Below are positions 36,932-57,551 of a stretch of DNA of 64,000 nucleotides, in pieces. The position numbers were made by a program, and so were the translations under genes. The notes below the pieces were generated by a model. That model was not told the origin of the DNA, did not search any database, and saw only the letters and a list, made by a program, of their open reading frames with translations. Positions within the stretch are counted from its first letter, which is position 1. Each line of letters opens with the position of its first letter. The stretch is from assembly GCF_902502825.2 (NCBI RefSeq), contig NZ_LR723670.1:3530501-3594500 (forward strand), written 5' to 3'. The stretch comes from Pseudorhizobium flavum (GTDB lineage: Bacteria; Pseudomonadota; Alphaproteobacteria; Rhizobiales; Rhizobiaceae).

Positions 36932-38275
36932 ATGAAATATCAAACCCAGAAGGTCGCGATGCTGTATTTCTACGGCGCGCTCGGCCTCTTCGTAGCCCAG
37001 GTCCTGTTCGGCGTCCTAGCCGGTACGATCTACGTCCTGCCCAACACGCTCTCCGAGCTCCTGCCGTTCAACATCGTGCGGATGATCCATACCAACGCAT
37101 TGATTGTCTGGCTGCTGATCGGCTTTATGGGTTCCACCTACTACCTGCTTCCGGAGGAGGCGGAAACGGAGCTCTACAGCCCGAAGCTCGCCATCATTCA
37201 GTTCTGGCTCTTCCTCGGCGCCGCAGCGGTTGCCGTGGTGGGCTACATGTTCAAGATCCACGAAGGCCGCGAGTTCCTGGAGCAGCCCTTCATCATCAAG
37301 GTCGGCATCGTCGTCGTCTGCCTGATGTTCCTGTTCAACATCACCATGACCGTCCTCAAGGGCCGCAAGACGGTCGTCACCAACATCCTGATCTTCGGTC
37401 TCTGGGGTGTGGCGATCTTCTTCCTCTTCGCCTTCTACAACCCGGCCAACCTGGCGCTCGACAAGATGTACTGGTGGTACGTCGTCCATCTGTGGGTCGA
37501 AGGTGTCTGGGAGCTGATCATGGCCTCCATTCTCGCCTACCTGATGATCAAGCTGAACGGGATCGACCGCGAAGTCGTCGAGAAGTGGCTCTACGTCATC
37601 GTCGGCCTGGCCCTCTTCTCGGGCATCCTCGGCACCGGCCACCATTTCTACTGGATCGGCGCTCCGGGCTACTGGCAGTGGATCGGCTCGCTCTTCTCCA
37701 CGCTTGAAGTGGCACCCTTCTTCACCATGGTGATCTTCACCTTCGTGATGACCTGGAAGGCCGGTCGCAAGCATCCGAACCGTGCCGCGCTGCTGTGGTC
37801 GATCGGCTGCTCCGTCATGGCCTTCTTTGGCGCCGGTGTCTGGGGCTTCCTGCACACCCTGTCGTCGGTGAACTTCTATACCCATGGCACGCAGGTCACT
37901 GCCGCCCACGGCCACCTCGCCTTCTTCGGCGCCTATGTCATGCTGAACCTCGCGGTCATGGCCTATGCGGTACCGGAAATCCGTGGCCGCGCCCCGTACA
38001 ACCAGATGCTCTCAATGGTCAGCTTCTGGATCATGTGCACGGCGATGTCGGTGATGACCTTCGCACTGACCTTCGCAGGCGTGCTGCAGGTCCATCTCCA
38101 GCGCGTCCTCGGCGAGAGCTACATGGACGTCCAGGACCAGCTGGCGATGTTCTACTGGGTCCGCCTCGGTTCGGGGGTCTTCGTCCTCCTGTCCGCCCTC
38201 ATGTTCCTCTGGGCCTTGTTCGTGCCGGGTCGCCAGCGGCTTCCCTCCGCCTCGGCGGCAGTTCCGGCCGAATGA
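36932..38275 (+). CDS. norB: Nitric oxide reductase catalytic subunit NorB
   Basis: A 447-aa, 12-helix haem-copper-superfamily protein that reduces two NO to N2O with a haem b3-FeB centre. Haem and FeB ligands are visible: H53 in MIHTNALIVW, the HLWVEGVWE glutamate/histidine segment near residue 185, the paired histidines of GTGHHFYWIG near 235, and two histidines in TAAHGHLAFFGAY near 330. It lacks the N-terminal quinol-oxidising extension of qNor, consistent with a separate NorC. ATG 36932 follows GGAAG; the longer 505-codon frame starts inside norC. Confidence 0.96.
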   Translation: MKYQTQKVAMLYFYGALGLFVAQVLFGVLAGTIYVLPNTLSELLPFNIVRMIHTNALIVWLLIGFMGSTYYLLPEEAETELYSPKLAIIQFWLFLGAAAVAVVGYMFKIHEGREFLEQPFIIKVGIVVVCLMFLFNITMTVLKGRKTVVTNILIFGLWGVAIFFLFAFYNPANLALDKMYWWYVVHLWVEGVWELIMASILAYLMIKLNGIDREVVEKWLYVIVGLALFSGILGTGHHFYWIGAPGYWQWIGSLFSTLEVAPFFTMVIFTFVMTWKAGRKHPNRAALLWSIGCSVMAFFGAGVWGFLHTLSSVNFYTHGTQVTAAHGHLAFFGAYVMLNLAVMAYAVPEIRGRAPYNQMLSMVSFWIMCTAMSVMTFALTFAGVLQVHLQRVLGESYMDVQDQLAMFYWVRLGSGVFVLLSALMFLWALFVPGRQRLPSASAAVPAE

Positions 38276-38277
38276 GA

Positions 38278-38308
38278 GGTGCGGCCCCGTCACGACCGGG
38301 GCCGCACC
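38278..38308 (+). other. Strong GC hairpin between norB and norQ
   Basis: A perfect 12-bp stem (GGTGCGGCCCCG / CGGGGCCGCACC) with a 7-nt loop begins 3 bp after the norB stop. No T-tract follows, so it more likely stabilises or delimits norCB mRNA than ends transcription. Confidence 0.65.
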
Positions 38309-38335
38309 CACCTCCTCCGTTGAAAGGATCCGACA

Positions 38336-39148
38336 ATGAACCTCCATCTTTCCGCCACAGCGCCCGGCAAGGCGCTGGTGCCTCACTACATCCCGGCGGG
38401 CAACGAGTGCGAACTCTTCGAACTGGCCTGGAAGCGCAAGCTACCGCTTCTTCTTAAAGGTCCGACTGGGTGCGGCAAGACCCGCTTCGTCAGCCATATG
38501 GCCGCCAGACTAGGCCTGCCGCTCTCCACCGTCTCCTGCCATGACGACCTTGCCGCCGCTGACCTCACAGGGCGCTATCTCCTGAAGGGTGGCGACACAG
38601 TCTGGGTCGATGGTCCCCTTACCCGCGCCGTCCGCAATGGCGGCGTCTGCTATCTCGACGAGGTCGTGGAAGCCCGCAAGGATGTCGCCGTCGTCCTGCA
38701 CCCTCTGACCGACGACCGTCGTATCCTGCCGCTCGAGCGAACCGGCGAGACGCTGGAGGCTCCCGCAGAGTTCATGCTCGTCGTGTCCTACAATCCCGGC
38801 TACCAGAACATCCTGAAGGCCCTGAAGCCGTCGACGAAGCAGCGCTTCGTCGCGATCGAGTTCGATTTCCTGCCGAAGGAGCAGGAGATCGCGATCGTTT
38901 CCGCCGAAAGCGGCCTTGAGGAGCGCCATGTGGCACCGCTGGTCAATCTCGCTCAGAGGCTGCGCGCGATGAAGGGACACGATCTCGAAGAAGGCGTTTC
39001 GACGCGCCTCCTCGTATACTGCGCATCGCTGATCGAGAGCGGGTTGACACCGCGCGAGGCGATCTCCGCAGCGATGATCGAGCCGTTGACGGACGATCCG
39101 GATGTACGGCTGGCGCTACGCGAAGTGGCAGGCGCAATCATACCCTGA
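38336..39148 (+). CDS. norQ: NorQ, MoxR-type AAA+ ATPase for NO reductase activation
   Basis: A 270-aa AAA+ ATPase with Walker A GPTGCGKT (residues 42-49), Walker B GVCYLDEVVE near 100, a sensor-1 segment VVSYNPGYQ and a sensor-2 arginine region near 220. NorQ and NorD form a hexamer/VWA pair that inserts the non-haem iron into NorB. The start has AAAGGATC upstream. Its stop is 7 bp before the norD start. Confidence 0.93.
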   Translation: MNLHLSATAPGKALVPHYIPAGNECELFELAWKRKLPLLLKGPTGCGKTRFVSHMAARLGLPLSTVSCHDDLAAADLTGRYLLKGGDTVWVDGPLTRAVRNGGVCYLDEVVEARKDVAVVLHPLTDDRRILPLERTGETLEAPAEFMLVVSYNPGYQNILKALKPSTKQRFVAIEFDFLPKEQEIAIVSAESGLEERHVAPLVNLAQRLRAMKGHDLEEGVSTRLLVYCASLIESGLTPREAISAAMIEPLTDDPDVRLALREVAGAIIP

Positions 39149-39155
39149 GGCAATC

Positions 39156-41054
39156 ATGTTCGAGTTCCTGGAACTGGAAGAAACCGTCGGGAAGACATGG
39201 CATCGCCTTGTCGGTCAGACCCGCAGCATGCCGCGCTATCCCGAGCAGGCCGTACGCCTTGACGAGGTCTCTCCCGTGCTGGCCTCCTGCTTTCGCGGCT
39301 TCGGCGGCGAAAGCACTTGCCAGTTGGTGCCTGCGGCACAGAAGACCAACGGCCACAGGCTGAAATTGCGACAATTGATCGGCCTCGGAGAGGAACGGGT
39401 AGCGCGCATAGGCCGTGACTTCGCGCGCGTCATGTTGCCGGCAGAAATTGACTTCTTCCCGGACCGGGCCCTCAACCGCAGTCTCTATATCTGGCTCACC
39501 GCCTATCTCGCGCTCGCCCCGTCACGGGGGATCAATGCGGACGAGCCGCTGGCGCGTGACCTTGCCCGGATCGACCGGGCGGAGGAGACGGTCCGGGAGG
39601 TGCTGAAGGCCTTCCCAGGTCTGCGGGCAAGTTATCGCAACCTCTGCGGCGCCATTCTAGCCGAGCGGCAGCGCGGAAAGCTGCCGCCGGTGGAACAGCT
39701 CGTTGAGAACAGGATCCTGAGCATCCTGCGAAAGGCGGCCTCGCTAGAGGATCCGCTGCCCGCATCGATCTTTCCGCGACAGTCGCCGCCCGGCTACCAG
39801 CCGATGATGGATGTGCCCCTCTGGCCGGAGTTCTTTCATACCAGCGAGACGGCACCCGCCAATTCCGAAACTGACAGTCCACTAGGTGATGCCAGCGCAC
39901 CTGCCGGCGGCAAGCGCTTCGTCGCCCAGCGGGAGGCCGTCGACGACAAGCGCAACGAGCGGAGCCCGTTCATCCTGAATCGCTTCGAGAAGATTCTCGC
40001 GATGGCCGAGATGGTCAATGTCGACCGTCCGACCGACGACAAGGATGATGAGGACGGCAAGGCCGCGGACGATCTTGACGACATGGTTCTCGGCCGCCGT
40101 CGCGAACGCCCCTCGTCGCGATTTCGCTTCGACCTCGACCTGCCGCCGGAAATGCTCGACCTGAGCCACATAGAAGCGGAACTCAGCTACCCCGAATGGG
40201 ACTACCGGAAATCGACCTATCTCAAGAGCTACTGCCGCGTACTGGCGGCACCGGCTTCCGAGAAGGGAGATGCGCTGGCGACCGATGACGAGACACGGAG
40301 GCTCGTGAAGAAGGTCCGCCGTCAATTCGAGATCCTGAGGCCGCGCCATGAGCTGCTGAAGGCACAGCTGGACGGCTCGGAGCTCGACATGGATGCCGTG
40401 GTCCGCTCGCGGACCGACCTCATCGCCGGCGGGCAGGGTAGTGATCGCATTCACCTGATGAGCCGGCCGCAGACCACGGATCTGGCGGTGACCATCCTTG
40501 TCGACGTGTCACTCTCCACGGATGCATGGATCGACAATCGCCGCGTTCTCGATGTCGAGAAGGAAGCGTTGCTGGTGCTGGCGCAGGGCCTTTCCGCCTG
40601 CGGTACCGACCATTCGATCCTGACCTTCACGTCGCGGCGCCGCTCATGGGTTCGTGTCGAGACAGTCAAGGGTTTCGACGAGGCGATGGGGCAAGCGGTC
40701 GAGAATAGGATCGGCGCTCTGAAGCCCGGTTACTATACGCGGCTCGGCGCTGCGATGCGCCATGCGACCGCCGAACTGCAGAAGCGGCCGAATCGCACAA
40801 AGCTCCTGCTGGTGCTGACGGATGGAAAGCCGAACGACATCGACCATTATGAGGGTCGTTTCGCTCTGGAAGACAGCCGCCGTGCGGTCCAGGAAGCGCG
40901 CCGCAACGGCACCAAGGTCTTCGCCGTGACGGTCGACCGGGACGCCCAATCCTACCTGCCGATCATGTTCGGCCGCAATGAATATGCGCTCGTCGGCGAC
41001 ATCTCGAAATTGCCGGCAGCACTGCCGGCAATCTATCGCGGCCTGACGACTTAG
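39156..41054 (+). CDS. norD: NorD, VWA-domain NO reductase activation protein
   Basis: A 632-aa cytoplasmic protein with a C-terminal von Willebrand A domain (about residues 440-630). The MIDAS metal motif is seen as DVSLSTD near residue 450, with the later TDGKPND aspartate near 560. The central part (about 250-340) is acidic and of low complexity. It is the partner of NorQ in maturing NorB. The longer frame begins inside norQ and is rejected in favour of ATG 39156. A terminator hairpin follows. Confidence 0.92.
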   Translation: MFEFLELEETVGKTWHRLVGQTRSMPRYPEQAVRLDEVSPVLASCFRGFGGESTCQLVPAAQKTNGHRLKLRQLIGLGEERVARIGRDFARVMLPAEIDFFPDRALNRSLYIWLTAYLALAPSRGINADEPLARDLARIDRAEETVREVLKAFPGLRASYRNLCGAILAERQRGKLPPVEQLVENRILSILRKAASLEDPLPASIFPRQSPPGYQPMMDVPLWPEFFHTSETAPANSETDSPLGDASAPAGGKRFVAQREAVDDKRNERSPFILNRFEKILAMAEMVNVDRPTDDKDDEDGKAADDLDDMVLGRRRERPSSRFRFDLDLPPEMLDLSHIEAELSYPEWDYRKSTYLKSYCRVLAAPASEKGDALATDDETRRLVKKVRRQFEILRPRHELLKAQLDGSELDMDAVVRSRTDLIAGGQGSDRIHLMSRPQTTDLAVTILVDVSLSTDAWIDNRRVLDVEKEALLVLAQGLSACGTDHSILTFTSRRRSWVRVETVKGFDEAMGQAVENRIGALKPGYYTRLGAAMRHATAELQKRPNRTKLLLVLTDGKPNDIDHYEGRFALEDSRRAVQEARRNGTKVFAVTVDRDAQSYLPIMFGRNEYALVGDISKLPAALPAIYRGLTT

Positions 41055-41076
41055 GGCGGGGGCGTCGGCTGCACGG

Positions 41077-41122
41077 AAGAGCCCGGCGGGACATCCCCCA
41101 GCCGGGCTCTTTCTGTTTCTGT
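41077..41122 (+). terminator. Terminator of norCBQD
   Basis: A perfect 10-bp stem (AGAGCCCGGC / GCCGGGCTCT), extendable by an A-T pair, with a 13-nt loop and a T-rich tail (TTCTGTTTCTG) lies 23 bp after norD. It also sits just past the stop of leftward hemN and may limit transcription from both sides. Confidence 0.8.
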
Positions 41123-41136
41123 AGAAGTTCTTTTGT

Positions 41137-42489
41137 CTACGCGGCCTTGCTGTAGGTCCGCTGCGAGGCTCCGAGATAGGCATCGAACGCAGCCGCAACG
41201 GCGCGAATGACAAAGCGATGGGCGTCATTGACCTGGACCGTACCGGCACCACGACGGATCAGTCCGTCGCTTTCCAGCGCGTCAAGCGCCTTGTTATCCT
41301 TCAGCAGGAGGTCCGCGTCGAAATCATGCGCGGCGCAGATTGCAGCCACGTCAACCGAGAAGTCGCACATCAGCCTCTCGATAACTTCAGCACGGAGCCG
41401 GTCTTCCGACGTCAGCGCGTAGGTCTTGGCCGTCGGCAGTTCGCCGGTGGAGACGCGGTTGGCGTAGAGGCCGGGCGGCACTTCGTTCTGATGGTATCCC
41501 TGGCCGAGCCTGCCGATCGCCGACGCACCGAGGCCGACGAGCGTCTCACAGGCATCGGTGGTATATCCCTGGAAGTTCCGGTGCAGGCGTCCTTCGCGTT
41601 GTGCAACGGCCAACTCGTCATCAGGCAAGGCGAAGTGGTCGAGACCGATCTGTCGATAGCCGGCCGCCACGAGCCTCTCCGCAATCGCCTCCGCCTGGGC
41701 GTGGCGTCCCTGCGCATCCGGAAGTGCAGCCTCGTCGATCAGTCGCTGGTGCTTCTTGAAGGTGGGGATATGGGCGTAGCCGAAAACCGCGAAGCGATCC
41801 GGACGCATCTGGACGGCAGTGTCCACCGTTTCGACGCAGGATTCGACCGTCTGGAACGGTAACCCGTAGATCAGGTCGAAATTGATGGCATGGATGCCAT
41901 TCGCCCTCAAGCCATCAACGGCCTTCAACGTCGTCTCCGCAGTCTGGATGCGGTTGATCGCCTTCTGCACCTTCGGATCGAAGCTCTGCACGCCAAGGCT
42001 CGCGCGCGTGACGCCGGAACGTCCGAGCGCTTCCATCATCTCCGCCTGCAGCCGGCGGGGGTCGATCTCGACCGCCGTGTTGACCTCGGGAGCAAAGCCC
42101 AGCTTCGTCCGCAATGCCTGCATCAGCGCAACGAATTCCTCGGGCTCGATGATTGTCGGAGTGCCTCCACCGAAGTGAATCTCACCGACATTGAGGCTGT
42201 CTTTCCGCTGAGCGGCGACCAACTCGATCTCGCGGTGCAGGACGTCGAGATAATCGAGGATCGGCTTGTCCTTCTCCGTAATGGTCGTGTGACAGCCACA
42301 GTACCAGCACATGGAGCGGCAGAAGGGGATGTGGAGGTAAAGTGAGGTGGCACGGTTGGTTGGAATCGAGCTCAACCAGCCGGCGTAGGTGCCGGGGACA
42401 ATATCGGCCGTGAAGTTCGGAGCGGTGGGATAACTCGTATAGCGCGGCAGGCGCGCCTCGCCGTATTTTTCCACGATGGACTGCGACAT
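41137..42489 (-). CDS. hemN: Oxygen-independent coproporphyrinogen III oxidase HemN
   Basis: A 450-aa radical-SAM enzyme that makes protoporphyrinogen IX when oxygen is low, supplying haem for NorCB and other cytochromes. The cluster motif is C57xxxC61xxC64 in FCRSMCWYCGC, whose extra cysteine is typical of true HemN rather than HemW. FGGGTPT follows near residue 107, and the C-terminal HemN domain is present. It is divergent from the DUF2249 cassette, with a TTG-N8-CAA box 66 bp from its ATG. Confidence 0.92.
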   Translation of the reverse strand: MSQSIVEKYGEARLPRYTSYPTAPNFTADIVPGTYAGWLSSIPTNRATSLYLHIPFCRSMCWYCGCHTTITEKDKPILDYLDVLHREIELVAAQRKDSLNVGEIHFGGGTPTIIEPEEFVALMQALRTKLGFAPEVNTAVEIDPRRLQAEMMEALGRSGVTRASLGVQSFDPKVQKAINRIQTAETTLKAVDGLRANGIHAINFDLIYGLPFQTVESCVETVDTAVQMRPDRFAVFGYAHIPTFKKHQRLIDEAALPDAQGRHAQAEAIAERLVAAGYRQIGLDHFALPDDELAVAQREGRLHRNFQGYTTDACETLVGLGASAIGRLGQGYHQNEVPPGLYANRVSTGELPTAKTYALTSEDRLRAEVIERLMCDFSVDVAAICAAHDFDADLLLKDNKALDALESDGLIRRGAGTVQVNDAHRFVIRAVAAAFDAYLGASQRTYSKAA

Positions 42490-42548
42490 GGAAATCTTCC
42501 TTCTAGCATTTCAGCTCAAGGAACTACCGGCGATCCACGGGGGCGTCT

Positions 42549-42562
42549 TTGCGCAATGTCAA
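42549..42562. promoter_or_regulatory. NnrR/FNR-type box between hemN and the DUF2249 cassette
   Basis: TTGCGCAATGTCAA fits TTG-N8-CAA. Its centre is 66 bp before the hemN ATG and about 138 bp before the first cassette gene. The distance to hemN fits class II activation; control of the cassette from the same site is possible with a longer leader. Confidence 0.72.
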
Positions 42563-42693
42563 TTGATCGGTGCACCAGCGGGATTGTTTGTCGCACCACA
42601 AAGTGGGCCGCTAACGGCCGCGATAGGTTGAGATCGGGATGAGTTCGGCCTGCTCTCCCACCCATCATCAACCAGGCCTTCGGAAAGACATAG

Positions 42694-42966
42694 ATGTCGA
42701 ATACTGCCGAGATCCCTCTGATCGACGTGAGGCTCATTCCGCCTCCGGAGCGTCACCCGCGCATCTTTGGTCTGTTGACCACACTTGAGCCAGGCGCCGC
42801 GATGCATGTCGCGAGCGACCATGACCCGCGACCGCTGCACTATCAGATCGAAAGCCGCTACCCGGAACAGTTCGACTGGAACTATCTTGAACAAGGGCCG
42901 ATGACCTGGCGCGTCGAGATCACGCGCGCAAAAAGCTCCGGCTGCGACTGCTGCTGCGGACACTGA
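42694..42966 (+). CDS. DUF2249 protein with cysteine-rich C-terminus
   Basis: A 90-aa soluble protein made almost wholly of one DUF2249 domain (LIDVRLIPPPERHPRIFGLLTTL, near residues 8-75), ending in a striking metal-binding-like tail, SGCDCCCGH. DUF2249 proteins resemble SirA/TusA-like folds and are common near nitrite and NO genes, but no biochemical role is settled. The tail could hold iron, copper or zinc, or form a sulfur-relay or NO-sensing site; this is inference. It is first of four tightly spaced genes, 11 bp before the 12-TM gene. Confidence 0.75.
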   Translation: MSNTAEIPLIDVRLIPPPERHPRIFGLLTTLEPGAAMHVASDHDPRPLHYQIESRYPEQFDWNYLEQGPMTWRVEITRAKSSGCDCCCGH

Positions 42967-42977
42967 GGAACAGAGAC

Positions 42978-44333
42978 ATGCAAGGCGCCTCGATTTCCCG
43001 CTGGACCATGACCTACTTCGCGACGTCGCTCGTCTTTCTTCTGATCGGGCAGGCACTTCTTGTCGTGGGTTTCGGATACCCTGTTCTGCAGGTCGAGGCG
43101 CCGGAAACGCTGGTCATCGTCCATCTGCTGGCGATCGGCTGGCTAGGGCTGCTGTTCTGCGGCGCCTTGCTTCAGTTCGTCCCTGTTCTCGTAGCTCGCC
43201 CCCTCCATGCGCCGTCGCTCGCGCTCCACGCGTTGATCCTGCTCATCGTCGGACTTCTTCTTCTCTGCCTCGGTTTCCTCCACCTGGGGGGACGCATCGA
43301 GGTCAGTGCCTTCCTCCTGCCGATGGGGGCAATGCTGCTGACGATCGGATTCGGCTTCATCATCTACATGATCGGCGGGACGCTGGTCGCCGGCACACCA
43401 CTCGCTTTGCCGGCCCGCTTCGTTGCGTTGGGCCTTCTGGCACTTGGCGGCACGGCCGGTCTCGGATTTCTCTTCTCTCTTCAGCTGTCAGGCCTCACCG
43501 GCAGTACACCGCTAGCGAATTTCCTGCCTGACGGCCTGTCGATCCATGCCTATCTCGGTCTCGTCGGCTGGATGAGCGTCAGCGCCTTCGGCGTCAGCTA
43601 CCGCCTGTTGGCGATGTTCCTGCTGGCACCGGAGCGGGAGCGGCGGACGAGCCAGTTCGCGTTTTATCTGCTTGCAGCCTCGACAACGATTGCCATGTCG
43701 CTTGTGCTTGTCCTTCTGCTGAATGGCACGATACACGGCCTTATCTACGCCAGCCTGGCACTCGCCGCCGTCGCTGCGCTTCTCTTCAGTTCAGACGTCG
43801 TCGTCATGTATCGACAGCGCAAGCGAAAGGCGCTGGAGCTGAATACTCTCATCACTGCTGTCGCCGTAGGCGCCCTGCTGGTTTCCGTGCTGGCCTTCAT
43901 TCTGCTGGCCACCTTTGGAGAACTCCAGCGACAGCTCGCACCCCTCGTCTATCTCGTCTGCTTCGGATGGCTGACGACGCTTGGCCTGGGCCAACTCTAC
44001 AAGATCGCTGCCTTCATGACATGGCTGGAGCATTACGGCCCCGTGCTCGGCCGACAGGCTGTTCCGAGGGTACAGGATCTTGTCAATGAACGCCGCGCCT
44101 CCAGATGGTTCTACCTCTATATCTGTGCGGTGGCCGCGGCTGTTCTCGCGCTTCTTCTGGGATCCATTGCCCTCTTCCGCACTGTCGCCTTGCTGCAGAC
44201 CGTGTCGGTCGGCATGCTGGCGCTCGAGATCGCCCGCACCCGCCGGCTGCGCTATGTATCACTTTCGTCGGGCAGTGCGGTGACCATGCCGCGCCCGAAT
44301 CTCTTCCTGCCCCACCCGCTCGAAAGGAAATGA
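42978..44333 (+). CDS. 12-helix, histidine-containing membrane protein of the NO regulon (haem-copper-oxidase-like)
   Basis: A 451-aa protein predicted to cross the membrane 12 times. Histidines sit within or near helices: VIVHLLAIGWLG near residue 43, LSIHAYLGLVGWMSVSAFG near 190 and WLEHYGPVLG near 350. The HAxLxLVGW pattern recalls subunit-I-like haem proteins (CcoN/NorB/NnrS superfamily), but the HEMLFG motif of NnrS and the full ligand set of NorB are absent. It may bind haem and handle NO or sense the quinone pool; neither is shown. It lies between two DUF2249 genes in one tight operon. GAGGAAC precedes the start. Confidence 0.7.
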   Translation: MQGASISRWTMTYFATSLVFLLIGQALLVVGFGYPVLQVEAPETLVIVHLLAIGWLGLLFCGALLQFVPVLVARPLHAPSLALHALILLIVGLLLLCLGFLHLGGRIEVSAFLLPMGAMLLTIGFGFIIYMIGGTLVAGTPLALPARFVALGLLALGGTAGLGFLFSLQLSGLTGSTPLANFLPDGLSIHAYLGLVGWMSVSAFGVSYRLLAMFLLAPERERRTSQFAFYLLAASTTIAMSLVLVLLLNGTIHGLIYASLALAAVAALLFSSDVVVMYRQRKRKALELNTLITAVAVGALLVSVLAFILLATFGELQRQLAPLVYLVCFGWLTTLGLGQLYKIAAFMTWLEHYGPVLGRQAVPRVQDLVNERRASRWFYLYICAVAAAVLALLLGSIALFRTVALLQTVSVGMLALEIARTRRLRYVSLSSGSAVTMPRPNLFLPHPLERK

Positions 44334-44335
44334 CT

Positions 44336-44854
44336 ATGGCCACAGAATTCAAGACGCTGGATGTTCGGCCGATCCTTGAGTCGGGCGGCGAGCCTTTCCA
44401 GGCCATCATGGGAGCAGTTGACGCGCTGGCTCCGGGCGAGGGCCTGAAACTTCTCGCTCCCTTCCGGCCACAACCGCTGTTCACGGTCATGGCGCGGCGT
44501 GGCTTCGACTATGAACTCGAAGAACTGCAGGATGGCGACTTCGAAGTCCGGTTCCTGCCCAAACAGGCCGAGCCGGAAATCCGGTATTCGGGAGATGGTC
44601 CGTCGCCCGACCTCTGGCCGGAACCTTCGATAGACCTTGACCTGTCGGAACTGGATCCCCCGGAGCCGATGGTCAGGCTGCTAGCGGAAGCAGAGCGTCT
44701 CGATCCAGGGGAGGTCATCTTCGCCGTCCTGTCTCGTGAACCGTTGTTCCTGTTTCCCGAGCTGACGAGCCGTGGACATCAATGGGTCGGCAACTTCGAC
44801 GCGACCGGAAACCTTTATCGCATCATGATCCGTATCGGATCGAGGGCCGAGTGA
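44336..44854 (+). CDS. Tandem DUF2249 domain protein
   Basis: A 172-aa soluble protein with two DUF2249-like units: residues about 5-75 (FKTLDVRPILESGGEPFQAI, LLAPFRPQPLFTVMARRGF) and about 98-170 (LDLSELDPPEPMVRLL, VIFAVLSREPLFLFPELTSRG), joined by an acidic linker. Unlike the 90-aa cassette protein it has no cysteine tail. AAAGGA lies 7 nt before ATG 44336, 2 bp after the 12-TM gene; ATG 44330, overlapping that stop, is an alternative. The longer upstream frame is a shadow. Confidence 0.75.
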   Translation: MATEFKTLDVRPILESGGEPFQAIMGAVDALAPGEGLKLLAPFRPQPLFTVMARRGFDYELEELQDGDFEVRFLPKQAEPEIRYSGDGPSPDLWPEPSIDLDLSELDPPEPMVRLLAEAERLDPGEVIFAVLSREPLFLFPELTSRGHQWVGNFDATGNLYRIMIRIGSRAE

Positions 44855-45147
44855 TGCGCAGTAACCATCAGAACGATCTGACGGCACGGGTCCGTGAGGC
44901 TTTGACCGCCGTCATCGATCCAGAGCTGGGCAAGAATGTCGTCGCACTGGGCCTTATCTACGGCATCGAAGCAAGCGACGCGGGAACTGTTCGGATTACG
45001 ATGACGACGACGACGCAAGGATGTCCGGCTTCTGCCTTCCTGGTAGATGCCGTTCGCTATGCGACCCGGTCAGTCGATGGCGTACTTGAGGCGGATGTCC
45101 GACTGACCCACGAACCACGCTGGGACCCGGGGATGATGGCCCCCTGA
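44854..45147 (+). CDS. DUF59/MIP18-family iron-sulfur assembly-like protein
   Basis: A 97-aa protein of the DUF59 family (MIP18, SufT, PaaD). It shows the family opening VREALTAVIDPELGKNVVALGLIYGI near residues 10-35, TMTTTTQGCPAS with the conserved cysteine near 58, and a closing RLTHEPRWDPGMM near 88. Members help load iron-sulfur clusters or metals onto target proteins. Its start overlaps the preceding stop (TGATG), so it belongs to the cassette, where it may mature or repair an NO-sensitive metal centre. The longer frame starts inside the preceding gene. Confidence 0.82.
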   Translation: MRSNHQNDLTARVREALTAVIDPELGKNVVALGLIYGIEASDAGTVRITMTTTTQGCPASAFLVDAVRYATRSVDGVLEADVRLTHEPRWDPGMMAP

Positions 45148-45180
45148 ACGAGGGGACCATCAAGACACGCTGCCCGGCGC

Positions 45181-46392
45181 TCAGCCGATCTTGCGCCTGA
45201 CCCGTGTCAGCATCGGCGCATATTCGACCAGGAAAAGACCGAAGGCCAGCAGCCAACTCGCACCCGAGATTACGTACAGCAGCCGGGCATGGTCCGGGAG
45301 GAAATCCGCTATCGGTCGGACAATGGCTGCGAGCACAATCGCAACATAGATGATCGAGGTCGTGCGGGATGCGGTCAACACGCGGCCGGTGTGCCCACGG
45401 GTGGCACGGGTCATCACGGCAAGCATCATCGAGGTCACGGTACCGACCGTCAGAACATGCAGGGCAGCGGTCGGCGAAACCACGCCGAGAGCCGCGACGG
45501 CAATACCGAGAAACCCGAGCGGCACGAAGAGATAAGCCACGTGCAGAACCGTGACCAGATGCTCATCCAGCGTGGTCCAGCCACGCCAGCGCGTCAGCCG
45601 CGCTGCATGAAGCATGAAAGCGGCACAGGTCAAAGCGGCAACGATCCATCCTTCCGCAAGAAGCACCCAGGCGGCGAGTGCGGCAACTCCGGTAAGAATC
45701 GCCACGCTGTCAAAGCGGCTGTAGGGGGCCGGGAAGTCCGTGCGACCGACCTTGTTGATCCAGTTCCGGGTGAAGCTTGGGATGATGCGCCCACCGATGA
45801 TCATCACCAGTACGACATAGGCGGAGACCGCAAGCTTGATCGCGATATCGGGATGGCCACCCTGCATCACCTGGAGATGAAACAGGATATTGCCGGAGGT
45901 GAGGGCGAGCAGTCCCCCCATGACCTTCAGGTCCTTCCACTTCCGGCCAGCGACGACCTCCCGCACACAGATCAGCAACAAGGTCGGCAGAAACAGGCTG
46001 TCTATGGCGGCCACCGTTCCCGTGGCGATGTTCGGAATCAGGAATACAAGCCGCCCGACCAACCACAATGCAAACAGCCAGAACAGCGGCCAGCTGGACA
46101 CCGGCAGCCTGCCCGTCCAATTCGGCACCGCCGTCAGAAGAAAGCCGGCGAGCACGGCGGAGGAATAGCCGAACAGCATTTCATGCGCATGCCAATGGGC
46201 AGGGCCATAATCCTCGGCGACCGGTAGAAGGCCCGTCAGGCTTGCGATCCAAAGAGCCATGGTGACGACGGCCCACACGGCCGCGCCGAGAAAGAACGGC
46301 CGGAACCCATAAGAAAAAAGCACTGGCGCGCTCTGCGACAGCCCCCTCGGAATGCCGCCCTTTCGGGCTTGTTCTGCGGAACCTAAGGCCAT
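45181..46392 (-). CDS. nnrS: NnrS family haem-copper membrane protein
   Basis: A 403-aa protein with about 12 helices and the NnrS signature HAHEMLFGYSSAVLAGF near residue 75, whose histidines bind haem and copper in characterised relatives. NnrS relieves nitrosative stress, probably by limiting iron-NO damage, and is often NnrR-controlled. ATG 46392 follows AAGGAGAG 7 nt away; the longer 432-codon frame crosses the regulatory box. It diverges from nirK and shares its control region. Confidence 0.9.
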   Translation of the reverse strand: MALGSAEQARKGGIPRGLSQSAPVLFSYGFRPFFLGAAVWAVVTMALWIASLTGLLPVAEDYGPAHWHAHEMLFGYSSAVLAGFLLTAVPNWTGRLPVSSWPLFWLFALWLVGRLVFLIPNIATGTVAAIDSLFLPTLLLICVREVVAGRKWKDLKVMGGLLALTSGNILFHLQVMQGGHPDIAIKLAVSAYVVLVMIIGGRIIPSFTRNWINKVGRTDFPAPYSRFDSVAILTGVAALAAWVLLAEGWIVAALTCAAFMLHAARLTRWRGWTTLDEHLVTVLHVAYLFVPLGFLGIAVAALGVVSPTAALHVLTVGTVTSMMLAVMTRATRGHTGRVLTASRTTSIIYVAIVLAAIVRPIADFLPDHARLLYVISGASWLLAFGLFLVEYAPMLTRVRRKIG

Positions 46393-46448
46393 GAATACTC
46401 TCCTTCTGTATCTTGATCTTTGTCTATTCCGGGAGAGCAGAAGGGTCT

Positions 46449-46462
46449 TTGCGAATGCGCAA
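46449..46462. promoter_or_regulatory. Perfectly symmetric NnrR-type box between nnrS and nirK
   Basis: TTGCGAATGCGCAA has fully symmetric five-base arms (TTGCG / CGCAA) around a 4-bp spacer, the best such site in the window. Its centre is 63 bp before the nnrS ATG and about 120 bp before nirK. A second, poorer TTG-N8-CAA match lies at 46482-46495, closer to nirK. Confidence 0.82.
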
Positions 46463-46575
46463 TGAAAATCGCTCGCCAAATTTGTCTTGGCTCAAAGATG
46501 CTATTGCGAACCAATACTAGTTTCCGTGACCAGAGAGACGGAGATGGCTCCGCCACTCAGTCTAGGAGAAAGACG

Positions 46576-47706
46576 ATGACACAGTTCAATTTGACCAGAC
46601 GTTCGATGTTGGCCGGTGCTGCCATTGCCGGCGCCATTGGTCCGCTCGTCCAGGCCTCGTTCGCCAGGGCGAATGAGGAAGTCGCCCCCATCACCACCCC
46701 GACGGATCTGTCTGCGCTGAAGCGCGTCAAGGTCGACCTGGTAAAGCCCCCATTCGTTCATGCCCACACCCAGAAGGCCGATGGCCCGCCGAAGATCGTC
46801 GAATTCACAATGACGATCCAGGAAAAGAAGATGGTCATCGACGACCAGGGCACCGAACTTCACGCCATGACGTTTGACGGTTCTGTCCCTGGTCCGATGA
46901 TGGTGGTTCACCAGGACGACTACGTCGAGCTGACGCTGATCAACCCGGAAACGAACGAACTGCAACATAACATCGACTTCCACTCGGCAACGGGTGCGCT
47001 GGGCGGTGGAGCGCTGACGATCGTCAACCCCGGCGAGAAGGCTGTGTTGCGCTTCAAGGCCACCAAGGCAGGTGTCTTCGTCTACCATTGCGCACCTCCC
47101 GGGATGGTTCCGTGGCACGTTACCTCGGGCATGAACGGCGCGATCATGGTATTGCCGCGCGAAGGCCTGACGGACGGCCACGGCAAGGAACTGGTCTACG
47201 ACAAGATCTACTATGTCGGCGAACAGGACTTCTACGTGCCGCGCGACGAGGCGGGCAACTTCAAGAAGTATGACAGCGTGGGCGAATCCTATGCCGACAC
47301 TCTGGAAGTCATGCGGACCCTGACACCCACGCACATCGTCTTCAACGGCGCCGTCGGTGCCTTGACGGGCGAGAACGCCATGACCGCCGCTGTCGGCGAA
47401 AAGGTGTTGATCGTCCATTCGCAGGCAAACCGCGACACCCGTCCGCACCTGATCGGCGGCCATGGCGACTATGTCTGGGCAACCGGCAAGTTCCGCAACC
47501 CTCCGGATCTGGACCAGGAGACCTGGTTCATCCCTGGTGGCACCGCCGGCGCAGCCTTCTACACCTTCGAGCAGCCGGGCATCTACGCCTACGTGAACCA
47601 CAACCTGATCGAGGCTTTCGAACTCGGCGCCGCGGCACACTTCAAGGTGACCGGCGACTGGAACGACGACCTGATGACGGCCATCGTTTCGCCGACCGGA
47701 AGCTGA
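46576..47706 (+). CDS. nirK: Copper-containing nitrite reductase NirK
   Basis: A 376-aa periplasmic enzyme reducing nitrite to NO. All metal ligands are present with the expected spacing: type 1 copper H131, C172, H181 and M186; type 2 copper H136, H171 and H342. The N-terminus ([16 protein letters not shown]) carries twin arginines, indicating Tat export of the folded protein. AGGAGAA precedes ATG 46576; the longer frame from 46420 crosses the promoter. nirV follows in the same direction after a hairpin. Confidence 0.96.
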
Positions 47707-47717
47707 TCGACAACCGG

Positions 47718-47740
47718 AGGCGCGGGTTCGCCCGCGCCTT
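47718..47740 (+). other. Hairpin between nirK and nirV
   Basis: An 8-bp perfect GC stem (GGCGCGGG / CCCGCGCC) with a stable TTCG loop, bordered by an A-T pair, begins 11 bp after the nirK stop. Only two T residues follow, so partial termination or nirK mRNA protection is likelier than full termination. Confidence 0.6.
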
Positions 47741-47798
47741 CAAACCTCATATGACATGTTGACGGGCCACTGCCCGAAGTTCGCCCAAGGAGGCGATC

Positions 47799-48707
47799 AT
47801 GTCCGCCGCAGCAAGCAAGACCGCTTTCTCACTCTTCCAGACCGCCCTTCCACTGGCCTTAATTTCGGCTCTCGGCATCGGCATTGCTCACCAGGCTGGG
47901 TTCTTCGCGGCCGCTCCGTCCACGGCTGCGCTCTACCAGCCACAGACTGTGGTCATCCCGCCCCGTACCTTCCAGTATCGGACAGACGGGGAGTACGTAC
48001 GGGGAGTTAACCCGATCGACGCTCCGAAATCGACTGTCACGCGTACAGATGCACTCACCATCATGAAGTATCAGGTGACGCTGTCGGAATACGACGCTTG
48101 CGTCATGGAAGGCGCCTGCGCGCCTGCGGCACATCCGAGCACATCCGACACGAACCTTCCCGTCACCGGCGTCAACTACGAAGACGCCCAGGCGTATGCG
48201 CGCTGGCTTTCGGAAAAGACCGGCGAATATTGGACCTTGCCATCCGATCAGGACCTGGCGTTTGCCGCCGGCAAGAGCTTTCCCGACGATGCCTCCGGGC
48301 TCGATCCAGACAACAAGAATCCGGCCCTGAAATGGATCGCCGACTACGAACGTGAAGCCGCGTCGCGATCAAAGCGGAATCCGGCACCGCAGCCTATCGG
48401 CAGCTTCGGGGAAAACGAATTCGGCCTTGCCGATTTCGGTGGAAACGTCTGGGAGTGGACAAGCACCTGCCACAGACGGGTCAACCTCTATGACAACGGG
48501 AGCCAGAAGGGCGTGGAGACCATCTGCGGCGTCAACGTGGCCGTCGGACCACATCGTTCGCCGACCAGCAGCTTCATCCGCGACCCTCGCGGCGGCGGTT
48601 GTTCGGTGGGGACGCCGCCGGACAATCTGGGCTTCCGGCTGGTGAAGTCGGCGGCGTGGTATGCCCCGGTCCTGCAGATGGTTCGCGCGAAGGGCCTGGC
48701 AGGTTAG
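47799..48707 (+). CDS. nirV: NirV, formylglycine-generating-enzyme-like protein
   Basis: A 302-aa protein with an N-terminal membrane helix or signal (about residues 10-33) and an SUMF1/FGE-sulfatase domain: MKYQVTLSEYDACVMEGAC near 90, VTGVNYEDAQAYARWLSEKTG near 125, and NEFGLADFGGNVWEWTSTC near 205. NirV accompanies nirK in many denitrifiers; its function is unknown, and the fold need not imply formylglycine formation. AGGAGG stands 5 nt before the ATG. The nnrR gene follows 79 bp later. Confidence 0.9.
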   Translation: MSAAASKTAFSLFQTALPLALISALGIGIAHQAGFFAAAPSTAALYQPQTVVIPPRTFQYRTDGEYVRGVNPIDAPKSTVTRTDALTIMKYQVTLSEYDACVMEGACAPAAHPSTSDTNLPVTGVNYEDAQAYARWLSEKTGEYWTLPSDQDLAFAAGKSFPDDASGLDPDNKNPALKWIADYEREAASRSKRNPAPQPIGSFGENEFGLADFGGNVWEWTSTCHRRVNLYDNGSQKGVETICGVNVAVGPHRSPTSSFIRDPRGGGCSVGTPPDNLGFRLVKSAAWYAPVLQMVRAKGLAG

Positions 48708-48786
48708 TCGGGCGCCGTCTGGCCTCGCCTCTTCCGACAGCGGCAGTGATCATGTATCCTGCACCGCGATATCGGAGAGTGACAGA

Positions 48787-49482
48787 GTGAAGATCGACAA
48801 GAGCCTGGTCCGGGCATTCCCGCTGTTCGAAAAGATGAGCGACGAAAGCCTGGAGAAGCTGCTGGCGCATTCCACCTCGCGGCGCGTCCCACCCGGCGAA
48901 GCCGTTTTCGAGCAAGGGGCAGCGGCGACGCATTTCTTCCTGCTTCTCCATGGACGCCTCAAGGTCACGCAGGTGACAGCGAGCGGCCAGCAGATCATCG
49001 TCCGCGTAGTCCACCCCGGGGATCTCTTCGGTTTCGCGAAGGCGCTGCAGCGAGCAGACTACCCGGGAACGGCGATTGCCGCCGCTGAAAGCGTTGCACT
49101 CAGTTGGCCGACGCATCTCTGGCCAGAGTTCATCGACCACCATCCCCGCCTTGCCGTCTCGGCAATGCACACGATCGGTCAGCGTCTCGAGGAGGCCCAT
49201 ACCCGAATTCGTGAGATGTCGACCGAGGAAGTGGAGCGGCGCGTCGCCCACGCGGTGCTCCGTCTGACGAAGCAGGCTGGCAAGGCCGAGGGCTCAGGCG
49301 TAAGGATCGACTTCCCGATTTCGCGCCAGGACATCGCCGAGATGACGGGAACGACGCTCCATACCGTTTCACGGATCCTAAGCGCCTGGGAAAGCAAGGG
49401 GCTTGTGGAAGGCGGGCGCCAGAAGCTCCTCGTCCGCGATATCAAGGGCCTATCGGACTTGGCTGAGACTGCCAAGGATTAG
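48787..49482 (+). CDS. nnrR: NnrR, Crp/Fnr-family NO-responsive regulator
   Basis: A 231-aa transcription factor with an N-terminal cyclic-nucleotide-binding-like domain (about residues 15-120) and a C-terminal winged helix (ISRQDIAEMTGTTLHTVSRI near 178-197). It contains no cysteine, so it cannot carry the FNR iron-sulfur cluster, fitting the NnrR/DNR branch that activates nir and nor genes upon NO. The recognition helix has histidine where FNR has glutamate, which may suit the TTGCG half-sites seen nearby. I start at GTG 48787 (GGAG 9 nt upstream); the longer frame is not homologous. Confidence 0.9.
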   Translation: MKIDKSLVRAFPLFEKMSDESLEKLLAHSTSRRVPPGEAVFEQGAAATHFFLLLHGRLKVTQVTASGQQIIVRVVHPGDLFGFAKALQRADYPGTAIAAAESVALSWPTHLWPEFIDHHPRLAVSAMHTIGQRLEEAHTRIREMSTEEVERRVAHAVLRLTKQAGKAEGSGVRIDFPISRQDIAEMTGTTLHTVSRILSAWESKGLVEGGRQKLLVRDIKGLSDLAETAKD

Positions 49483-49510: not shown

Positions 49511-51241
49511 TCACATTGTCCCGTTTCTTTGAAGCGGAGCGTGGCCGGATGCCGTAGCGTCCCTGCTGATCGCCATGGATATCGCCTGTCCCAACTGCTC
49601 TTGCGTAAACGGCTTGACGAGCCGCGACAGGGCTCCGACCGATGCGCCATCCGGAAGCTCGGCATAGCCGGATGCCAAAATGATTGGCTGTCCCGGATTG
49701 GCGCTAAGCAACGAGCGGGCAAGATCGGCTCCCGACATTCCGGGCATGGCGTGGTCGGTGATAACCAGATCGAAACTCTGCCCTGAGTTCACGATTTCCA
49801 GGGCCGCCTGTCCGGAATTGGCTTCCGTGACCCTGTGGCCAAGGTCTTCCAGCATGTCGACCGTGCCCATGCAGACAAGGACATCGTCGTCCACCACCAG
49901 TATCCGCAGGGAGACGGCAGCCTCGGCCTCCGTGGAAGCGCTCCAAGCAGATTGCTCCCCGGCCTGCTCGGAAACGTCATCCTTGGCGACGGGCAGCCAA
50001 AGCTCTGCCGTGGTCCCTTCGCCAGGGGTGCTGTGAAGCTGCAGAATTCCCCCTGACTGGGCAGCCAGCCCGTGGACCATCGAGAGTCCGAGACCCGTTC
50101 CCTTGCCGAGCCCCTTGGTGGTGAAGAAGGGCTCGGCCGCACGCGCAAGCGTCTCTTCGTCCATACCCGAACCGGTATCGGCAACCCGCACCCGCAGATA
50201 ACGTCCGGCCGACAGCCCTGGCGGGAGATCGTGATCGCCGGGAATGGTTTCTTCGGCGTCGATCGAGATGACGCCTTCCTGCTGGATTGCATCGCGGGCG
50301 TTGACGGCAAGGTTGAGGATCGCCAGCTCGAGCTGGTTGGCATCCACGAGGGCCAGAGGCAGTTCACTTGGCAGCCGGTTCTCGAGCCGGATGGTCGGTC
50401 CCACCGCCCGTTGCAGCAGCCCTTCGATGCTGCCGAGGAGTTGCACGAGATCGACGGCCTGAGGCTTGAGCTCCTGCCGGCGTGCGAAGGCAAGCAGGCG
50501 CTGGGTCAGTGCCGCGCCACGTTCGGCAGCCTGGACCGCATTGTCGAGCAACCGAAGGTTCTTCTCCTCGGGCGGGATGCGTTTGCGCAAAAGGCTGAGG
50601 CTGCCAAGCGCTGCCATCAGCAGATTGTTGAAATCATGGGCGACCCCACCAGTGAGTTGTCCGATTGTATCCAGCTTCTGGGCCTCGAAGAGTTGCGCCA
50701 TCGCCTCCTCCCGCTCCCGGGTACGAAGCTCGATCCGGTTTTCCAGTTCCTCGTTGAGGGTCTGCAGCTGCTGATAGGACGTCTCGAGTTCGGCTGTCCG
50801 CTCCTGAACCCTGCGCTCAAGGTCCGCATTCAGCCGCTCCAGCTCCCGGGTTTTCCGATAGAGTTCCACGAAGACCCGCACCTTGGCACGCAGGACTTCC
50901 GGGACAATCGGGACGGACACATAATCGACCGCGCCGGCCGCGTAGCCCCGCAGGCGGTCGGGTTCGGTCATCATCACAGCCGATACGAAGATCACTGGGG
51001 TCTTCTCGAAACGAGGGTGGGCGCGGATCAGCTCCACGAGCTCGAATCCATCCTGCTCGGGCATGCAGACATCGACCAGAATCACGGCGACATCTGTGCG
51101 GAGAAGATGTTCCAGCGCCTCCCGCGCCGACTGAGCCACGAGCAGGTTTTCGCCAAGCTCCTGGAGGATTACCTCGTAGCTCAAGAGCTTGGCGGGCTGG
51201 TCGTCCACGAGCAGAATGTTGACGGGATCAGGCATGGTCAT
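49511..51241 (-). CDS. Hybrid histidine kinase: receiver - coiled coil - kinase - receiver, soluble
   Basis: A 576-aa cytoplasmic protein without membrane helices. Order: receiver domain (about residues 5-125, ILLVDDQPAK with the phospho-aspartate in LVDVCMPEQDG), a long coiled coil (about 130-190), a HisKA-type domain with H202 in GGVAHDFNNLL, an ATPase domain (NAVNARDAI-like N-box as NLAVNARDAI, then DTGSGMD and GKGTGLGLSMV), and a second receiver (about 455-570, ILVVDDDVLV, ITDHAMPGMSG). It begins 1 bp after the stop of the poly-HAMP kinase (TGAGATG), so the two are translated together and its first receiver may take phosphate from that kinase. Confidence 0.88.
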   Translation of the reverse strand: MTMPDPVNILLVDDQPAKLLSYEVILQELGENLLVAQSAREALEHLLRTDVAVILVDVCMPEQDGFELVELIRAHPRFEKTPVIFVSAVMMTEPDRLRGYAAGAVDYVSVPIVPEVLRAKVRVFVELYRKTRELERLNADLERRVQERTAELETSYQQLQTLNEELENRIELRTREREEAMAQLFEAQKLDTIGQLTGGVAHDFNNLLMAALGSLSLLRKRIPPEEKNLRLLDNAVQAAERGAALTQRLLAFARRQELKPQAVDLVQLLGSIEGLLQRAVGPTIRLENRLPSELPLALVDANQLELAILNLAVNARDAIQQEGVISIDAEETIPGDHDLPPGLSAGRYLRVRVADTGSGMDEETLARAAEPFFTTKGLGKGTGLGLSMVHGLAAQSGGILQLHSTPGEGTTAELWLPVAKDDVSEQAGEQSAWSASTEAEAAVSLRILVVDDDVLVCMGTVDMLEDLGHRVTEANSGQAALEIVNSGQSFDLVITDHAMPGMSGADLARSLLSANPGQPIILASGYAELPDGASVGALSRLVKPFTQEQLGQAISMAISRDATASGHAPLQRNGTM

Positions 51242-51242
51242 C

Positions 51243-57200: not shown

Positions 57201-57551
57201 GACGGAATCCTCCATGTCACTCCAGGCACCGCCCGAAAGGCTTAGCCGAACACGATTCTTCGTCCGCCCGTCCCGGCCCACGAGCTGGCCTACATGGTCA
57301 AGCTGTGCCGCCATGCGCTGGTTGGCTGCGATGATGTCGTTGAAGGCATCCGCGACCCGGCCTGACAGGCCGGTATAGTCGGAGCTCAGCCTTGCTGTGA
57401 AGTCGCCCCCGCGAACCCGTTGCAGGACATCCAGCAAGGCCGCCAACTGCAGTGCCTCGCCTGTGGACATGCCGGCTGATCCCTCGGATGAGACCAGCTC
57501 GGCGGCTGACCGATCCGGATTGTCTGCCGAATTCTCGCGTGCCTTGACCAA
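51243..57551 (-). CDS. Giant soluble poly-HAMP hybrid histidine kinase with three receivers
   Basis: A 2102-aa protein with no evident membrane segment. After an N-terminal region with further HAMP-like sequence (about residues 30-179), 11 tandem 92-residue HAMP-type units fill residues 180-1191, each opening [19 protein letters not shown] or a close variant. Then come a GAF-like domain (about 1215-1365), a coiled coil, HisKA with H1439 in [10 protein letters not shown], an ATPase domain, and three receivers ([29 protein letters not shown]). Poly-HAMP kinases of fungi (Nik1/Os-1 group) sense osmotic and wall stress; the bacterial role is unknown. TTG 57551 has GAGGGGG upstream; ATG 57470 is an alternative start. 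Confidence 0.9.
53979..57014 (-). repeat. Eleven in-frame tandem repeats of 276 bp encoding HAMP-type units
   Basis: The units are exactly 92 codons each and highly alike at DNA level, with recurring stretches at every unit's start and around the INTMVDQL codons. Units 4-6 share a NVRGVAGTW variant that the others lack, suggesting recent duplication within the array; the last two (10 and 11) have drifted most. Confidence 0.9.

Follow-up and report, generated by a model that had tools for sequence, protein, structure and literature searches.

A four-gene DUF2249/DUF59 cassette of Pseudorhizobium flavum encodes a membrane protein with a predicted oxidase fold and a putative single-haem pocket

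The question raised by the locus described here is what a compact set of four genes, named A, B, C and D, may do among the nitrite and nitric oxide (NO) reductase genes of Pseudorhizobium flavum. In the window, i.e. the whole stretch of 64,000 nucleotides that was analysed (assembly GCF_902502825.2, contig NZ_LR723670.1, positions 3,530,501 to 3,594,500 of the forward strand), the four open reading frames (ORFs) lie on the plus strand between hemN and nnrS, with intergenic gaps of 11, 2 and -1 bp, and their coordinates agree with the layout given in a first-pass annotation made from the sequence alone; for C, an in-frame ATG at 44330, overlapping the stop of B, is an equally possible start. 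Our findings suggest that B shares the fold of the respiratory oxidases and may hold a single haem, and that A and C resemble the DUF2249 proteins DrpA and DrpB of Thermus, two features absent from that annotation. As a tentative hypothesis, quite possible and still short of probable, we propose that the cassette is an accessory module of N-oxide respiration and NO exposure, concerned with cofactor maintenance rather than with pure signalling.

B escaped the common family models: neither Pfam nor NCBIfam matched it, 39 B members gave only scattered weak Pfam matches (best E 0.004), and a B profile found no match in the PDB. Haem-copper oxidases are built of three four-helix units (EU1 to EU3, for evolutionary units). 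The predicted model of B has 12 long helices, the number expected by the first-pass annotation, arranged as such a core of three four-helix units, and it shares its fold with the catalytic subunits NorB and CcoN (PF00115) over about 390 residues. On the strength of this model, B almost certainly has the fold of a haem-copper oxidase catalytic subunit. Sequence-only matches are weak, and the relation is drawn from the fold together with ungapped register tests: whole-length hhalign of B against NorB plus CcoN gave a local match only, with a probability of 0.6%, and unit-wise alignment placed EU1 and EU2 of B weakly on EU3 of CcoN (E 0.0017 and 0.028, respectively). B also shares the GW motif of CcoN helix 10. 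Oxidases and NO reductases carry histidine ligands on helices 2, 6, 7 and 10 for the low-spin haem, the high-spin haem and CuB or FeB. Unlike NorB and CcoN, B has no conserved histidine on helix 7 or helix 10 in either the close or the diverse alignment, an absence that does not depend on how its haem pocket is assigned; judged by these residues, B cannot be an oxidase or NO reductase of known type. Invariant cysteines are likewise missing among 39 close sequences.

Two histidines remain, H49 on helix 2 and H190 on helix 6. They are the only invariant histidines of B among the 39 close sequences, and they alone remain invariant in 17 sequences spanning a second tier of relatives, as well as in a set of 15, 20-39% identical to B, in which Thermus, Campylobacterota, Cupriavidus and haloarchaea are represented; of the membrane histidines highlighted earlier, these two are conserved and the others are not. 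In the HxH motif of CcoN helix 10, the first histidine (X) is the ligand of the high-spin haem and the second (X+2) that of the low-spin haem. The low-spin haem of the oxidases is thus held by EU3 X+2 together with the helix-2 histidine, and the binuclear site by EU3 X with the helix-6 histidine. The inner helix of each unit was compared with CcoN helix 10 by ungapped profile scores and 300 shuffles, NorB serving as a second reference. H49 falls at X+2 and H190 at X, a placement also given, weakly, by unit-wise hhalign. With CcoN as reference, none of the 300 shuffles reached either score; with NorB the registers were unchanged, the scores of H49 and H190 being reached by 6/300 and 99/300 shuffles in the close set and by 0/300 and 5/300 in the diverse set. 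Weak results were also obtained for EU1 of CcoN and of NorB on both references, for EU2 of CcoN and of NorB on CcoN, for EU3 of NnrS on CcoN and for EU2 of close-set B on NorB, so the oxidases' own helix-2 register is weak and their helix-6 register is clear on NorB only (X+2). The two histidines fit one haem, and from their conservation it is likely that B binds one. By the pseudo-threefold symmetry of the fold, the pocket would be a third, normally unused one, formed by EU1 X+2 and EU2 X, an assignment towards which we lean slightly.

Proteins of this kind may have been noticed before. Pei et al. 2014 (Protein Sci 23:1220) reportedly described HCOH (haem-copper oxidase homology) proteins with three evolutionary units, 12 TM (transmembrane) segments, two conserved histidines and a denitrification or NO context, all of which B resembles in its helix number, oxidase fold, histidine pair and NO-related loci. 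By that account, the fold class with two histidines is already the HCOH class, and B's family is not claimed here as unpublished. The same work is cited, in the part available of PMC11218638, for a link between DUF2249 and the oxidase superfamily.

The neighbouring gene nnrS encodes an oxidase-like membrane protein that belongs to the NO regulon. A paralogous relation of B to NnrS was ruled out, since the two show no sequence match and PF05940 matches neither B nor any of the 39 members of its family; together with the missing histidines of helices 7 and 10, this bears out the earlier view that B is by motif neither NorB nor NnrS. The best-kept histidines of NnrS are H97, at EU1 X, and H341, at EU3 X+2 (clear on NorB, unclear on CcoN), and they point to the ordinary low-spin haem site.

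The partners of B are remarkably constant among its close relatives. A scan of one genome per species gave 445 loci with B relatives, of which the best 80 (L001-L080) were analysed over up to 8 kb on each side of B, hits outside 0.6-1.6 times the seed length being left out of the profiles. The order B-C-D was invariable, with C and D in 80/80 loci and A just upstream in 71/80, so the fixed linkage to DUF2249 and DUF59 on which the first-pass annotation had let its case for a new system depend does hold; nor is B covered by a Pfam or NCBIfam model that would give its family a defined function, the other ground on which that case was to fall. The same 80 stretches contain cNorB (the catalytic subunit of cytochrome c NO reductase, cNOR) in 43, NirK in 44, NnrS in 46, HemN in 38 and a Crp/Fnr gene in 52. 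'NorB variants' were seen at eight loci, and the seven that were aligned look like the cbb3 subunit CcoN, two of them matching the ccoN model and the others being named by likeness. These CcoN-like genes lie within about 8 kb of the cassette at L018, L033, L037, L047, L053, L071 and L077. Of 398 genomes sampled separately from the phylum, 45 had a match, and the close-tier loci fetched from it (two already-seen genomes left out) showed B-C-D in 11/11 and an adjoining A in 7, although species of the first set may be repeated there; C is short in L113. Twelve of 60 relatives have B, which is split in two in G026; every one of the twelve also has DUF2249 and NnrS, and cNorB was present in 10/12 genomes with B vs 10/48 without it, counts that are uncorrected for kinship.

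B and D are also more divergent than the NorB encoded nearby. When 12 genes were compared in the 28 of the 80 loci that have all eight genes asked for, B was the most divergent (median identity 48%), followed by D (52.6%) and NirV (53.0%), with NorB at 90%; some accessory genes have evidently changed much more rapidly than the adjacent enzymes. D was rejected as an outlier, NirV being equally divergent. The divergence of B fits an accessory protein better than a core enzyme, and does not prove it. Identities to the window proteins encoded at 36932-48707 ranged over these loci from 85 to 99% for NorB, 45 to 63% for B, 44 to 63% for D and 47 to 79% for NirV.

The small proteins belong to known domain families. 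A and C scored 97.8 and 113.3 bits against PF10006 (gathering cut-off 29.5) and are DUF2249 proteins. Conservation was counted in 73 A, 80 C and 81 D proteins from 81 loci (the window and L001-L080) after score thresholds. H21 and H43 of A are present in all 73 proteins; the cysteine tail stressed in the first-pass annotation (CDCCCGH) exists and is lineage-specific, its four cysteines being kept in 53-71%. C consists of two DUF2249 stretches, the second half also matching TusA (PF01206, E 1.5e-7, 31.6 bits vs a cut-off of 28.6). TusA sulfurtransferases have a conserved sulfur-carrying cysteine, and neither A nor C shows this mark of the catalytic enzyme, C having no conserved cysteine and A none outside its variable tail. 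D is a member of the FeS_assembly_P/DUF59 family (PF01883, 64.5 bits vs 23.5) with a conserved DPE motif and C57, and it did not reach the SufT or PaaD equivalog cut-offs (best 77.5 bits vs 143.4, SUF_assoc).

For the Thermus proteins that A and C resemble, mutants have been published. A single and a tandem DUF2249 gene beside N-oxide respiration genes, as in the Drp system, are found in the cassette: A shares 51% identity, and the RH and DHDP motifs, with the protein at the drpA position of Thermus JL-18, C is 35% identical to that at the drpB position, and D is 43% identical to the product of the D gene beside B in the same strain. These relatives were reached with a second-tier query, the Magnetococcales protein L122, whose use in a protein search of plasmids returned B relatives in Thermus, Aliarcobacter, Cupriavidus and haloarchaea. 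Three T. thermophilus plasmids carry, in this order, nar genes, a DUF2249 gene, a second DUF2249 gene, a 144-aa ORF, a protoglobin gene, B and DUF59; a T. brockianus plasmid has all of these except nar. The B and D homologues of Thermus thus lie downstream of the DUF2249 genes; unlike the rhizobial cassette, Thermus has a DUF1858 domain in DrpB, the 144-aa ORF and protoglobin gene in between, and other regulators. For the 144-aa ORF of JL-18 (L139:5656-6090), a sub-threshold match to the final portion of COX1 (E 4e-5) raises the possibility of a single-unit relative of the oxidases within the Thermus cassette. An ORF of the same size stands at this place, between the drpB position and protoglobin, in L148, L149 and L150. 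In T. thermophilus HB8, the homologue of D that follows a B remnant is TTHB138, with a solved structure (2CU6; also PDB 3CQ1-3); no function was found in the PDB titles seen for it. In Aliarcobacter, B and D come after a gene with a weak, sub-threshold DUF2249 match (E 6e-5), Cupriavidus pHG1 has B between hemerythrin and Crp/Fnr genes with NnrS nearby, and in Haloferax larsenii B comes after a multicopper oxidase gene, near a qNOR-like gene. In the second tier itself, an ORF with a DUF2249 profile match was present in 8/17 loci (one overlapping B); three of these ORFs were tested and proved to be DUF2249-hemerythrin fusions. At L122, L127 and L132 the fusion gene is divergent from the B relative.

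According to the available part of the Thermus study (PMC6282519), dnr and nar are mis-regulated when drpA or drpB is mutated, and nitrate dependence and anaerobic growth on nitrate are lost in the double mutant, with little nitrate reductase activity at wild-type-like amounts of its subunits; DrpA proved periplasmic, and DrpB was located both to the cytosol and to the membrane. All four DUF2249 genes of Haloferax mediterranei rise under denitrification, and in bacteria such genes, of unknown function, adjoin denitrification genes, as stated in the part available of PMC11218638.

Regulation places the cassette in the same context. A TTG-N8-CAA box occurs twice upstream of A (at 42549 and 42588), where the first-pass annotation had reported one. 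The first probably serves the divergent hemN; the second is probably the cassette's own Fnr/NnrR-type box, because at least two boxes are found upstream of the cassette in 40/80 relatives and a box at -125 to -90 in 53/80. A box within 300 bp upstream occurs in 64/80 loci vs 5.4 expected from dinucleotide shuffles, the loci being related and not independent, and this conserved box makes the cassette a predicted member of the NnrR regulon. The box goes with the denitrification genes: it is present in 56 of the 58 loci whose stretch includes cNorB, NirK or NnrS (at -125 to -90 in 51), and in 8 of the remaining 22 (at that distance in 2). Around 17 loci poor in such neighbours, Rrf2 matches were obtained for 4/86 ORFs (picked by eye from 116, mainly leaving out ORFs across the cassette or across another ORF); the three that could be placed, at L047, L050 and L068, have NsrR as closest model, yet stay under the NsrR equivalog cut-off.

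The features of the window are collected in the table. norBQD lies upstream of the cassette, and hemN and nnrS flank it on the opposite strand; B is found at 98% identity in the nearest relative genome examined. Farther downstream, a 2102-aa ORF at 51243-57551 (minus strand) matches a histidine-kinase profile built in this analysis, and a response-regulator/histidine-kinase-like ORF at 49511-51340 adjoins it.

Table. The cassette, its upstream boxes and the neighbouring genes (positions in the window).
Feature	Position	Strand	Description
norB (cNOR catalytic subunit)	36932-38275	+	name by homology and position
norQ	38336-39148		name by homology and position; strand not stated separately
norD	39102-41054		name by homology and position; strand not stated separately
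hemN (oxygen-independent coproporphyrinogen III oxidase)	41137-42489	-	TIGR00538 above cut-off
TTG-N8-CAA box TTGCGCAATGTCAA	42549-42562	.	-145 from A, 60 bp from divergent hemN start
TTG-N8-CAA box TTGTCGCACCACAA	42588-42601	.	-106 from A; candidate Fnr/NnrR-type box
A	42694-42966	+	single DUF2249 protein, DrpA-like, 90 aa; PF10006 E 3e-28
B	42978-44333	+	12-TM protein, 451 aa, haem-copper oxidase fold (predicted model); predicted single-haem protein
C	44336-44854	+	tandem DUF2249 protein, 172 aa, DrpB-like without DUF1858 domain
D	44854-45147	+	DUF59/FeS_assembly_P ('metal-sulfur cluster assembly factor'), 97 aa; PF01883 E 1e-17
nnrS	45181-46479	-	PF05940 E 2e-112
nirK (copper nitrite reductase)	46420-47706	+	TIGR02376 above cut-off; start unsettled, listed ORF overlaps nnrS ORF
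nirV-like FGE-sulfatase domain protein	47799-48707	+	PF03781
Crp/Fnr regulator	48661-49482	+	NnrR by position only (name inferred); below every NCBIfam equivalog cut-off

We hypothesize that the first and second four-helix units of B would have between them one low-spin b haem, bound by H49 and H190, and that B would be the membrane partner joining A and C. By analogy with Thermus, B is a natural candidate for the missing membrane part of Drp-type systems; in the rhizobial gene order A-B-C it is encoded between the two DUF2249 genes. The redox or NO-bound state of B may control the cytosolic C and D, which would help to mature or re-metallate iron enzymes damaged by NO, the targets possibly being nitrate reductase in Thermus and NO-exposed Fe-S and haem enzymes in this bacterium. 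Cofactor maintenance is favoured because in Thermus activity was lost at normal subunit amounts and because the family name of D is that of Fe-S or metal-site maturation factors. The first-pass annotation had proposed a membrane haem protein with a delivery and repair set for NO-damaged centres; the two histidines are compatible with its haem, and cluster delivery and NO-damage repair found no direct support, B having no invariant cysteine and the tail of A being unconserved. Taken jointly, a B that lacks both classical haem sites and holds one bis-His haem in the third pocket, links DrpA-type and DrpB-type DUF2249 proteins across the membrane and through its haem controls DUF59-assisted metallo-cofactor maturation under N-oxide respiration, in a module spread over Pseudomonadota, Deinococcota and Campylobacterota, is doubtful as a whole.

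Several observations weigh against this proposal. The gene set loosens with distance: C or D lay within 1.5 kb of B in 0/17 fetched second-tier loci (several near contig ends), in T. parvatiensis two DUF2249 genes accompany B with no D annotated, HB8 (L147, plasmid pTT27) retains only the last third of B before D, the stretch read lacking annotated nar genes, no DUF2249 or DUF59 is annotated near B on Cupriavidus pHG1, and in four haloarchaeal stretches DUF59 is annotated in 0/4 and DUF2249 in 2/4. H21 and H43 of A, like its RH and DHDP motifs, are missing in 3/12 more distant DUF2249 proteins (haloarchaeal and hemerythrin-fused). At eight loci of relatives (L094-L101) A and C occur with neither B nor D in the stretch read, each time with a tandem pair of divergent NnrS genes, and one of these eight genomes, G036, also has a B cluster; D thus goes with B, and A and C can stand alone. 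As for the pocket, the H190 register on NorB is weak in the close set, and the contrast between B and NnrS is incomplete, since most NnrS members carry H99 opposite H49 of B. Our literature search found no experiment on B or D, and DUF2249 was never paired there with the product name 'metal-sulfur cluster assembly factor'. In the part available of the Thermus study (PMC6282519), the crossing of the signal is only speculated upon and nitrate sensing is favoured, not repair; drpAB is also described there as bicistronic and driven by a promoter of its own, so B and D may be transcribed separately from it in Thermus.

Among the rival explanations, B could be a stand-alone protein for NO or iron-nitrosyl handling that, like NnrS, lowers cellular nitrosyl-iron, the other genes being merely co-regulated. 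B is indeed a 12-TM oxidase-like membrane protein in the same regulon and adjacent to nnrS, NnrS is described in the available part of PMC11526790 as haem-containing and protecting the iron pool, and the tandem NnrS pair occurs at all eight B-less A-C loci. The B-C-D linkage in 80/80 loci argues that the partners matter, NnrS is also present in all 12 B-bearing genomes of the 60, so B is no replacement for it, and the invariant histidines of B occupy registers other than those best kept in NnrS (H341 being clear on NorB only); we regard this explanation as unlikely. That B is haem-free, a transporter or scaffold retaining the oxidase fold, would agree with its being the most divergent of the 12 genes compared and with a haem that is predicted only, and is very unlikely given two histidines, at ligand registers, that never vary among bacterial and archaeal sequences of 20-39% identity.

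A DrpA/DrpB-type sensor of nitrate or NO that adjusts the transcription of respiratory genes, with B as transmembrane relay, would explain the mis-regulation and lost nitrate dependence of the Thermus mutants (PMC6282519) and the place of B between Drp homologues. Crp/Fnr genes and boxes are already present at these loci, Pfam and NCBIfam revealed no DNA-binding or kinase domain in A-D, and the Thermus authors report, in the part available, a loss of enzyme activity unexplained by expression, which leaves the sensor rather improbable. Least probable, and highly so, is a dedicated assembly factor for cytochrome c NO reductase, inserting haem or FeB. The cassette lies 1.6 kb from norD with hemN alone intervening, and COG4309 has been suggested to be relevant for NO reductase (PMC1274295); against this, none of cNorB, NirK and NnrS occurs in the stretch read at 22/80 loci, cNorB is absent in 2/12 B-bearing genomes and B in 10/20 cNorB genomes, and Thermus B adjoins nitrate reductase.

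With the cassette read as an accessory module, the question of DUF2249 function gains a membrane partner, two mutable residues, an oxidase-fold pocket and a DUF59 partner with a solved relative, and it becomes directly testable in ordinary laboratory rhizobia. If the proposal is true, B would be a case in which a respiratory oxidase fold has been reused without its catalytic site.

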